This document shows, one piece after another, positions 33,400-37,499 of a DNA stretch of 61,327 bases; position 1 is the stretch's first letter, and each line of letters begins with the position of its first letter. The notes under the pieces were generated by a model. It was given only the letters and a program-made list of their open reading frames with translations. It was not told the origin of the DNA and did no database searches. The stretch comes from Acidimicrobiia bacterium (lineage in GTDB: Bacteria > Actinomycetota > Acidimicrobiia > IMCC26256 > JAMXLJ01). Where the stretch lies: contig JAMXLJ010000162.1 in NCBI GenBank assembly GCA_024281095.1, positions 1 through 61,327 on the forward strand, given 5' to 3'. The position numbers and the translations under genes are program-made.

Positions 33400-34836
33400 T
33401 CAGCCGGCGCGGGCGCCTTCGAGGCGCGCCGGTCGCAACAGCTCGCCCGCGAGCTCGCGCTCCCACCACGCTCCGGTACGGCGGCGCTCCTCCCGCGAGG
33501 TGAACCGGTACACGAACAGCCGCGCGCGCACGAACACGGGCGGGGCGTCGGGGAACGGGTTCCTTCGCAGGAGCTTCGACGTCTGCGGGTCGTTCTCGAG
33601 CAGCTTCACCACGAAGCTGCCGAACCACTCCTGCCCGTACGCCGGAGAAATCCCGACGAACCACATCAGCCAATCGAGCCGCAGGTGGTACGGCGCAACC
33701 TGTGGGGGGCGCCGTCGCACGTTGCCGGGCTTTCCCTTGAACTCGTACTCGCGCCATTGCGTCGAGTCGGTGACCACCGTGTCGTCGGTGCCTTCGACGA
33801 CCACCTCACGACGCACGCGGGTGATGCCACCGAACGCGCCGTACGTGTTGACCAGGTGCAGCTGGTCGAAGCTCGCGTTCATCAGTTGCCGACGCGACAC
33901 CAGGTTGCGGACCGGCCGGTAGCTCAGCACGGCAATCAGCAAGGTGAGAGCGATGGCGAGCGCCCCGAACCATCCCGGCGACGACAACGAGTGCGGAGCC
34001 GGAAACGGGAACACGTGCCGCAACAAGCCGTCACCAAGTGCCGGGATCGCGATGGTGATCGTCAATGCGTTCAGCCACGCGAAGTTTCCGCTCAACATCA
34101 GCCACGACTGTGTAACGATCATCACGAGGGCCGCAATGCCGGCGACGGGTTGGGGCGCGAACAACGCGAACGGCACGACGAGCTGCGTGAAGTGGTTCGC
34201 AAGCACCTCGACCTTGTGCAGGCCGCGCGGCAAGTGGTGGAAATACCAGCTGAGCGGGTTGGGCATCGGCTGGGTCTCGTGGTGGTAGTAGAGGCACGTC
34301 AGATCGCGCCAGCAGGGGTCGCCTCGCAACTTGATGAGACCGGCGCCGAACTCCACGCGAAAGAGCAGCCACCGCAACAGCCACAGCACCAGCGTCGGCG
34401 GCGCGACGTGCGCAGGACCGAGGAAGATCGCGAGGAACCCGGTCTCGAGGAGCAGGCTCTCCCAGCCGAACGAGTACCACGTCTGGCCGACGTTGACGAT
34501 GGAGAGGTAGAGGGCCCAGAGCACCCCCCACGCCAACATCGAGGTCCAGACCGGCGCGCGCTCCACGAGCCCTGCGATCGCGGCGACCGACAACACCATG
34601 CCGACCCAGGTCGTCGCGTCGAACAGGCGGTCGGAGTAGCGCAACTGGAACAGGCTCGGCGCGCGCCGGAACGGCACCGCACGCGTGAAGCGCGGGATCG
34701 GCAGGATCCCGTACTCGCCGAGCAGCGGGCGGAACTGGTTGCGGGCCGCGAGGAACGCGATCAGGTAGATGGTCGCGAGCGATCGCTGGAAGACGAAGCG
34801 GCTCAGCCAGTACCCGGGCGCGGGGATCCAGTTCAC
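33400..34836 (-). CDS. Lipase maturation factor (LMF1) family membrane protein
   Basis: 478 residues with about eight hydrophobic segments. The family-defining features are NVGQTWYSFGWESLLLETGFL, RVEFGAGLIKLRGDPCWRDLTCLYYHHETQPMPNPLSWY (given here in pieces of the LMF core) and a C-terminal hydrophilic domain with RLDWLMWFVG. In animals LMF1 helps disulfide-containing lipases fold in the ER; bacterial members are uncharacterised. The GTG start overlaps the FAD gene stop by four bases. It is third in an operon after a redoxin and an FAD oxidoreductase, which fits an extracytoplasmic thiol or folding role. That role is inference. Confidence 0.85.
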   Translation of the reverse strand: MNWIPAPGYWLSRFVFQRSLATIYLIAFLAARNQFRPLLGEYGILPIPRFTRAVPFRRAPSLFQLRYSDRLFDATTWVGMVLSVAAIAGLVERAPVWTSMLAWGVLWALYLSIVNVGQTWYSFGWESLLLETGFLAIFLGPAHVAPPTLVLWLLRWLLFRVEFGAGLIKLRGDPCWRDLTCLYYHHETQPMPNPLSWYFHHLPRGLHKVEVLANHFTQLVVPFALFAPQPVAGIAALVMIVTQSWLMLSGNFAWLNALTITIAIPALGDGLLRHVFPFPAPHSLSSPGWFGALAIALTLLIAVLSYRPVRNLVSRRQLMNASFDQLHLVNTYGAFGGITRVRREVVVEGTDDTVVTDSTQWREYEFKGKPGNVRRRPPQVAPYHLRLDWLMWFVGISPAYGQEWFGSFVVKLLENDPQTSKLLRRNPFPDAPPVFVRARLFVYRFTSREERRRTGAWWERELAGELLRPARLEGARAG

Positions 34837-36299
34837 GGCCTGATGCCGGTGACCTCGGCGACACTCTCGTCGCCCAACCCGAAGACTCGTCGCAGCACGG
34901 TACGCGCGGCGTGGTATCCGCACATGCCGTGCACACCCGGCCCCGGCGGGGTCGCGGACGAGCAGAGGTAGATCGACGGATTCGGCGTCGCGTATGGCGT
35001 GCGCGCGATGACGGGTCGGAACAATGCCTGTACGCCGCCGAACCGGCCGAGGGCGATGTCGCCACCCACGTTGTTCGGGTTCCGGGCCTCGATGTCAGGG
35101 GGTCCGGCCGCGGCGCGCGCGAGCACCACGTCCCGAAAGCCGGGCGCGAATCGTTCGATCTGTTGCTCCACGGGACCAGTCAGGTCGCCACGCCAGTCGA
35201 AGGGTACGTGCGCGTAGACCCAGAACACGTGCTGCCCCGGCGGAGCTCGAGTGGGATCGAACCGGCTCGGTTGCGCCGTGATCAGGAATGGCGTCGACGG
35301 CGGACGTCCGTGCACCACCGCCCGCAGCGCGGCGGTGATCTCGGCCTCGGACGCGCCGACGTGCACGGTGCCCGCGTCGCGACACTCCTCCGCGGTCCAC
35401 GGGACCGGTTCACTCAATGCGTAGTCGATCTTGAACACTCCGGGGCCGTGACGGTAACGGCGCAGGCGCGTGACGTAAGGGCCCGGCAGGCGGTCACCTG
35501 CAATCCCCAGCAGGCCTTCGACCGACAGATCGAAGAGATACGCCCTTGCCCTCGGAAGCTCGTCCAGCGATTCGACGCGATGTCCGGTGATGATCTCACC
35601 GCCCGATGTCCGCACGTGCGCGGCGAGGGCGTCCGACAGCGACTGCGACCCGCCGCGGGGGAACGGCCATCCGACGGCATGCGCGGCCAGGGCGAACAGG
35701 AGCGCGACGCCACCGGTCGCCGGCGACGTGGGAACGGCGATCGCGTGCCCGGCCAGACCCGCGAACATGGCGCGCGCCCGCTCGTCCGGCATCAGTGCGG
35801 ACAGGAGCTTCACGGGGAGGCCGGCCCGCGCGACGAATTGCGCGAACAGCAGCGGGTCTTCGGGCCACGACGTCACCGGCCGCAGCACGTCGTGGGCGAG
35901 CGTGTCCCACCGGTCGAGGAACGGCGCGACGATGCGGAGGTAGGCGCGGCCCGCCGCGCCGAGCGTCGCGGCCGTCTGCTCCGGCGAGCGCGCGAGCGTC
36001 GCGACGGAGCCGTCCCCGAGCGGGTGGGCGAGGGCGAGCTCCGGCTGGATCCACTCCAACCCGTGGCGTTCGAGCGCGAGCGCACGAAACACGGGTGAGC
36101 CGGCGCCGAGCGGGTGCACGGCCGAGCACGGATCGTGCAGGAATCCCGGGAGTGTCAGCGGCTCGGTGCGCGCTCCCCCGCCCACGACCGGCGCCGCTTC
36201 GTAGACGCGCACCGTGACGCCGGCCTCGGCGAGGATGGCTGCGGCGGTCAGCCCGTTCGGGCCGGCACCGACGACGACGGCGTCGACGCGTTCCATCAC
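34833..36299 (-). CDS. Phytoene-desaturase-like FAD oxidoreductase (NAD(P)/FAD amine-oxidase fold)
   Basis: 488 residues. FAD-binding DAVVVGAGPNGLTAAAILAEAGVTVRVYEA near residues 6-35, then GGGARTEPLTLPGF, and the C-terminal CSSATPPGPGVHGMCGYHAA contact. This is the phytoene dehydrogenase/retinol saturase group, which isomerises, saturates or oxidises long polyenes or related lipids. The start is ATG at 36299 (or the second ATG). It lies 64 bases after the redoxin and overlaps the LMF1 gene. A carotenoid role is possible, but no phytoene synthase is in the window. Confidence 0.88.
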   Translation of the reverse strand: MMERVDAVVVGAGPNGLTAAAILAEAGVTVRVYEAAPVVGGGARTEPLTLPGFLHDPCSAVHPLGAGSPVFRALALERHGLEWIQPELALAHPLGDGSVATLARSPEQTAATLGAAGRAYLRIVAPFLDRWDTLAHDVLRPVTSWPEDPLLFAQFVARAGLPVKLLSALMPDERARAMFAGLAGHAIAVPTSPATGGVALLFALAAHAVGWPFPRGGSQSLSDALAAHVRTSGGEIITGHRVESLDELPRARAYLFDLSVEGLLGIAGDRLPGPYVTRLRRYRHGPGVFKIDYALSEPVPWTAEECRDAGTVHVGASEAEITAALRAVVHGRPPSTPFLITAQPSRFDPTRAPPGQHVFWVYAHVPFDWRGDLTGPVEQQIERFAPGFRDVVLARAAAGPPDIEARNPNNVGGDIALGRFGGVQALFRPVIARTPYATPNPSIYLCSSATPPGPGVHGMCGYHAARTVLRRVFGLGDESVAEVTGIRP

Positions 36300-36363: not shown

Positions 36364-37404
36364 TCACCCGGACGCGAGTGTCGGCCCGAGACCGTGGTAC
36401 GGGCGGCCGTTGCGCTGCCACTCCTCGTAGAACTCGAAGAACGCCGGACCGAACGGATCATCGCCCACGAGGGGCATGGACGCCCGGCGGATCGTCCAAT
36501 CGTTCGGTGCCAGCTGCGCCGCCTGTACGAAGTGGCGCCGCGCCGCCTCTTCGTCGCCATGGCGGCGTGCCTCCGTCGCGATGCGGAAGTGCAAACGCGC
36601 CCGCACTTCGTCGTCGGAGAGCTGGCCCACTGCGCCGCGCGCGTCCTCACGAGCGATCGGCACAACGCCCTCGCGCACCCAGCGGCGAATCTCGTCGAGA
36701 TGCGGCTCGGCTTCCACGCCGGTGAAATCCTTGAAGGTGTCAGTGCCGTACGCGACGCCGTTGGGTCGCGCGATCCGGTCCTCTTCGTCGATCCAGATCA
36801 CGGTCGGCACGTTGCTGATCGCGTACAGCTCTGTCGTGAGATGCTGCGCATCGAGCAACACAGGGAACGTGATCTCGTCGGTGAACGGTTTCACGTCGTC
36901 GGGTGAGTCGTCGAGCGCGACACCGATCACCGTGAACCCGAGCGGAGCCAGCTCCTCGTACAGCGCCTGCCACCCGGGCAGGTCGTAGCGGCAACCTCAC
37001 CAGGTCGCGAAGGCGAGCAGCAGCTTCTTGCGACCGTGCCATTCCGCGAGGTCGTGGACCCTTCCGTCGAGGTCCGGGAGCGTGAACTGCGGCGCCTCGA
37101 GTGCGTCGAGCGCACGGGCGCGCTCCTCCGCGGGAAGCGCGACCGCGGCGATGCCAGCGTCATTGTCGACGACCACCGGGCGGCGTAGCGCGCCGGCCAC
37201 CGCAGCGAGGTCGAGGCGGTCCTCGACCCGGAGCGACTCGACGTCGCGGACGGGCACGCACACGTCGCCACGGCACAAACCCTCCGGCTTCAGCTCCCAG
37301 CCGAGCGCCGACGGCAGATCGCCCGAACGGAGGAGCATCCGACCGTCGCGAACCGTTGCGTCGAAGACGCGCACGTCCTCGGCGATCACGGTGAACTGTG
37401 TCAT
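36364..37404 (-). CDS. Redoxin/TlpA-like protein with in-frame TGA, candidate selenoprotein
   Basis: Read through one TGA this is a single 346-residue frame; without recoding it is split into a 135-residue and a 188-residue open frame. Residues 1-100 form an N-terminal domain with C44 and C49. Residues 104-135 carry the thioredoxin-like FTLPDLDGRVHDLAEW and KLLLAFATW. Codon 136 is TGA, then G137 and C138 (TW-U-GCRYDLPGW). The fold continues with VIGVALDDSP, NVPTVIWIDEEDRI and a helical tail with TPR-like AARRHFVQAAQLAPNDW. Cys is expected at codon 136 in redoxins, so selenocysteine fits. AAAGGTG precedes the ATG by four bases. It is first in an operon with the FAD protein and LMF1. A nonsense or sequencing change from TGC is the alternative. 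Confidence 0.8.
36964..36999 (-). promoter_or_regulatory. Candidate SECIS: TGA codon and downstream bulged hairpin
   Basis: On the coding strand the TGA is at 36999-36997. After 20 bases comes an apical loop CGGGT (36976-36972). The stem pairs CTGCC (36981-36977) with GGCAG (36971-36967), then C36982-G36966, a bulged A36983, G36984-C36965 and C36985-G36964, giving 8 bp. Bacterial SECIS elements sit at about this distance from UGA and have G-rich apical loops with a bulged base. Position and shape fit; thermodynamics and conservation were not computed. Note that such GC-rich DNA forms hairpins easily. Confidence 0.5.
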
Positions 37405-37499
37405 CGATCACCTTTCGACGCCCGCACGATCGACCGCCGGAACCACACTGTCAAGTCACGTGGTTGGGATCCGTCACGTCTGGGCAAGACGGAGGCAGA

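Follow-up and report, generated by a model that had tools for sequence, protein, structure and literature searches.

The question raised by this locus is how a redoxin gene is read when a stop codon occupies its redox position. The window, meaning the whole 61,327-nucleotide stretch of Acidimicrobiia DNA that was analysed, carries this gene on the minus strand at 36364..37404. It starts with an ATG at 37404, ends with a terminal TGA at 36366-36364, and contains a single internal stop, TGA 36999-36997, with zero frame shifts. A likely ribosome-binding site, GAAAGG, is predicted from the sequence on the same strand at 37411..37416. The table-11 ORF list ends the gene at the internal TGA, as standard bacterial gene calling does. 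The original prediction held that the frame is open on both sides of this TGA, that the codon falls between FATW and GCRYDLPGW, and that the gene is a candidate selenoprotein. Re-reading of the ORF agrees exactly on the open frame and confirms the placement, with the TGA (36997..36999, minus strand) as codon 136 in FATW-U-GC. The selenoprotein reading is itself supported by selenocysteine (Sec) machinery and by homologues that carry only TGA or a Cys codon at this site. With a probability of about 95%, the mid-gene TGA is read as Sec and the gene encodes a selenoprotein of 346 residues, a UxC redoxin with an N-terminal Cys-pair domain and a helical, TPR-like C-terminus.

A search for selA, selB, selD and selC in the 4.39 Mb genome that contains the window (98% complete) finds all four. 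SelA is matched at 475 bits and adjoins SelB, which scores 304 bits, or 332 bits with its C-terminal piece. SelD is matched at 411 bits, and there is one tRNA-Sec (69 bits) with the anticodon UCA. SelA, SelB, SelD and tRNA-Sec together are what a bacterial selenoprotein requires. The same genome also holds a formate dehydrogenase-like gene (L157, around G000:C142:13778-14530) whose frame carries a TGA where Sec classically lies, in ARIUHSSTVPSLG; this is likely a Sec-containing formate dehydrogenase. Given the machinery and this second TGA-containing gene, the organism, placed in Acidimicrobiia by its nearest named relatives, therefore very probably inserts selenocysteine.

Homologues align over their full length on both sides of the TGA, the closest at 66-67% identity, and the aligned sequences contain no codon other than TGA, TGC or TGT at the site. 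The 30 relatives that were fetched have TGA in 25 cases, TGC in four and TGT in one. The GTDB species genomes yielded 80 loci, of which five showed no motif to the script and one was a spurious match; in the 74 aligned, TGA occurs 42 times and Cys codons 32 times (TGC 23, TGT 9). Selenoproteins are recognised by an in-frame UGA at a catalytic site where homologues have either Sec or Cys, and this is the pattern found here. Missing Sec machinery and homologues failing to align across the TGA had both been named as grounds for refuting the prediction, and neither is the case. The codon also follows the machinery, with selA present in 23 of 25 genomes with a TGA copy vs one of five with a Cys copy. 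In a tree built with the site masked, the FxxWUGC clade of the window protein has a support of 100/100. Sec and Cys forms are intermixed in this tree, and well-supported branches force at least 5-6 changes between them.

Some of the homologues are unusual in other respects. One genome (G041, loci L026/L144) has a Cys copy despite a selA match of 603 bits, while other selA matches reach at most about 484 bits; this is possibly contamination or another type of selA. Six homologues (L109, L117, L123, L126, L131 and L135) lie on contigs labelled Euryarchaeota, Deltaproteobacteria, Deferribacteres, Bifidobacterium breve or Acidobacteria. L135 is outside the tree set and L117 stands apart, but most of those placed nest within Acidimicrobiia clades, which suggests that these are misassigned MAG contigs. 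Altered motifs are found in paralogues, with WASWUHC (H for G) in L061 and WAPYUGCS in L060.

Bacterial Sec insertion calls for a SECIS hairpin shortly after the UGA, modelled with an upper stem of 4-16 bp, a loop of 3-9 nt that has G[G/U] in its first positions, a distance of 16-37 nt from the UGA and an energy of at most -7.5 kcal/mol (PMC13188914). The sequence CCUGCC-CGGGU-GGCAGG at 36966..36982 on the minus strand agrees with this model throughout. It forms a 6-bp stem with a 5-nt loop, CGGGU (36976-36972), that has the G[G/U], begins 20 nt past the UGA, and belongs to a hairpin of -10.6 kcal/mol. Folding energy alone does not single out the hairpin, as dinucleotide shuffles of the region fold just as well (z +0.76). 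Since the gene is GC-rich and stability is uninformative, the SECIS assignment rests instead on tests of codon constraint and pair conservation.

These tests point to constraint on the hairpin in Sec genes. Of 42 Sec genes, 39 have CTG as the Leu codon of the stem, vs 11.2 expected given the codon usage of each gene; in low-GC genomes CTG is used in 16 of 19 Sec genes vs 1.7 expected. A full Watson-Crick 5-bp stem is kept in 60/63 Sec rows vs 24/36 Cys rows (Fisher p 2.5e-4), and the pair joining Leu base 3 to Gln base 1 in 63/63 vs 25/36 (p 5e-6), although the rows are phylogenetically clustered, such that both p values overstate independence. In one Sec row this pair survives as CTT/AAG in place of CTG/CAG, both of its bases having changed. 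Neither the pair counts nor those of the Leu codon take kinship into account. The constraint on the hairpin is partly lost in Cys homologues. A pattern containing the SECIS is no chance arrangement: it occurs once in the window, vs 0 expected in shuffles, and the whole genome has two occurrences, each in a member of the UGC redoxin family.

Several explanations other than Sec have to be set against these data. The TGA could be a real stop that arose by a recent TGC-to-TGA mutation, leaving a pseudogene or a functional truncated protein. A one-base change suffices for this and the SECIS region is not unusually stable, but the same codon is TGA in most relatives of both sets, the part after it is conserved, the synonymous codons of the hairpin are constrained and the genome has complete Sec machinery. 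This makes a recent stop very improbable. A sequencing or assembly error at one base of the TGA, conceivable where a single assembly is read, is more improbable still, as the same TGA is found in a paralogue of the same genome. Neither an error nor a pseudogene is tenable, because dozens of independent assemblies have the same TGA.

The codon could also be decoded by something other than Sec insertion, through near-cognate readthrough or a code in which TGA means Trp. No support was found for either, and both can be set aside almost entirely: the gene uses TGA as its own terminator, homologues exchange the site for Cys and never for Trp, and a dedicated tRNA-Sec and a SECIS are present. Recoding of the UGA to selenocysteine is thus left as the strongly supported reading. 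Selenocysteine would be formed on the UCA tRNA by SelA and SelD and brought to UGA codon 136 by SelB docked on the downstream SECIS hairpin, giving the predicted full-length protein of 346 residues.

A confident AlphaFold2 model of this protein (mean pLDDT 92.6) has three parts: an N-terminal domain, a redoxin domain with the thioredoxin fold, and a tail of helices. The redoxin domain covers about residues 97-214 (36762..37116, minus strand) and includes U136, C138 and a cis-Pro-type P200. The part after the TGA had been predicted to be the rest of a thioredoxin fold, and the Pfam matches agree, with both AhpC-TSA (56 bits, cut-off 26) and Redoxin (47.8 bits, cut-off 26.6) spanning the TGA over residues 103-213. 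The nearest solved structures are ResA, DsbE and TlpA, and thioredoxin matches of the ResA/DsbE type reach a Z of 15.4; the ResA-like thioredoxin topology is evident from Z of 14-15 to ResA and DsbE over 133-138 residues. The C-terminal helical region, about residues 231-346 (36367..36715, minus strand), has a weak TPR-like match.

The N-terminal domain spans about residues 1-95 to 1-99 (37108..37404, minus strand) and carries the invariant C44 and C49, which lie on adjacent strands of a hairpin in the model. Besides residue 136, the only cysteines conserved across 113 homologues are C44, C49 and C138, each present in 112-113 of them, a set that spans the two paralogue groups and has Sec as well as Cys forms. 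The domain gives zero Pfam matches even at E 10, its best Foldseek hit has an E of 0.14, and it is absent outside the UGC redoxin family in the 21 genomes searched. Pilus-usher N-domains were considered as a relative and rejected, the best VIA-align Z of 5.3 being too weak to use. A likeness to the N-domains of copper amine oxidases, considered as well, gained no support. No export signal or membrane anchor is visible by eye at the N-terminus, MTQFTVIAEDVRVF, so the protein is probably cytosolic, unlike ResA and TlpA.

What the selenoprotein does is less certain than that it is one. From its fold and motif, U136 would be the attacking selenolate and C138 the resolving thiol of the UxC motif, and the thioredoxin-fold domain would reduce a substrate of the disulfide or peroxide type. 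A peroxiredoxin-like peroxidase, in place of a disulfide reductase, fits the Pfam AhpC-TSA and Redoxin matches and the early literature name of Prx-like (PMC2398784). However, the best sequence and structure matches are thiol-disulfide oxidoreductases of the ResA/DsbE/TlpA type and the UxC sits at the position of their CxxC, which makes a peroxidase unlikely, though far from negligible.

The near-invariance of C44, C49, U/C136 and C138 in the 113 homologues suggests a thiol/selenol relay. In such a relay, internal to the protein, the C44/C49 pair would probably either take oxidising equivalents from the Sec-Cys pair or pass reducing equivalents to it. The TPR-like tail probably holds a partner or substrate. 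Taken together, a cytosolic three-domain selenoredoxin in which C44-x4-C49 relays electrons for a Sec-Gly-Cys centre, from a subfamily whose members changed between Sec and Cys on several occasions within Acidimicrobiia, is proposed tentatively, as an account somewhat more apt to fail in part than to hold as a whole.

The genomic context shows no conserved operon and points to no substrate. Directly downstream on the same strand, at 33400-36299 of the window, lie two genes, one FAD amine-oxidase-like and one for a lipase maturation factor (LMF1), which could be co-transcribed with the redoxin gene, although this gene order is not conserved. A search of about 120 homologue loci for proteins encoded next to the gene in the window found none that stays beside the Sec form from clade to clade; the downstream FAD oxidoreductase is near only three homologues, all of them Cys forms. 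Promoter and terminator scans were empty.

The predicted enzyme is common in soil, freshwater and marine Acidimicrobiia and is easily missed or mis-annotated, because standard gene calling stops at the TGA. Its clade contains many closely related Sec and Cys versions, and the constraint on the hairpin weakens with the switch. Because of these repeated switches and the weakening constraint, the clade is well suited as a natural experiment on what selenocysteine costs, what it brings and how a SECIS decays. If the relay selenoredoxin proposal is true, the clade would offer a natural series in which to ask what makes a lineage retain Sec or give it up. The invariant C44/C49 pair, which lies beyond the redoxin domain, would likewise provide a concrete, testable mechanism for a predicted family.

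Proteins of this kind have been catalogued before, which makes the case less novel than the original prediction implied. The 2008 Global Ocean Sampling study listed 46 Sec sequences as 'Prx-like (UGC-containing)' (PMC2398784), a UGC-containing Prx-like protein is among the entries of a 2022 review (PMC9312934), and a 2026 review has the entry 'UGC-containing TlpA disulfide reductase family protein' (PMC13188914). Searching the literature for Acidimicrobi- selenoproteins returned nothing, and none of the searches made brought up experimental work on the window subfamily or on the NCBIfam group discussed below. Like the literature class, the window protein carries a Sec-containing UGC motif within an AhpC-TSA/TlpA-like domain. 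Both share the motif in a pfam00578/cd02966 domain, a predicted Sec and known Cys homologues; the likeness is one of description, the entries (reference MDE0950781.1) giving the redoxin domain and motif only. The gene is a further member of this already catalogued UGC Prx/TlpA-like selenoprotein type.

Within this type, the closest curated model is NCBIfam NF041054 'WAxxUGC_long', which describes a ResA-like WAxxUGC motif-containing protein and represents a longer sister family. The two groups share the N-terminal CxxxxC domain, the UGC redoxin, the helical tail, the Sec position and the SECIS hairpin. However, the window protein falls in a separate clade with 100/100 support and lacks the segment inserted after the redoxin domain. 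Its score is 213.6 bits where the cut-off is 300 (subfamily relatives 228-235), and its motif is FATWUGC, with F replacing the W of WAxxUGC across its clade. Because of this score and this replacement it is assigned to a sister subfamily and not to NF041054 itself. A second TGA-containing UGC selenoprotein in the same genome (L051:2338-3417, G000:C93) has an identical SECIS stem-loop and, at 557 bits, is a full member of NF041054.

Compared with the better known ResA, TlpA and DsbE, the window protein has the same thioredoxin fold, the catalytic position after the W of WxxC and the cis-Pro. It differs in having extra N- and C-terminal domains and no anchor visible in its sequence. The CxxC active site of ResA and TlpA is replaced by UxC, with Sec in place of Cys, and the alignment to ResA shows the motif to be one residue shorter, in line with the unusual U-G-C spacing noted in the original prediction.
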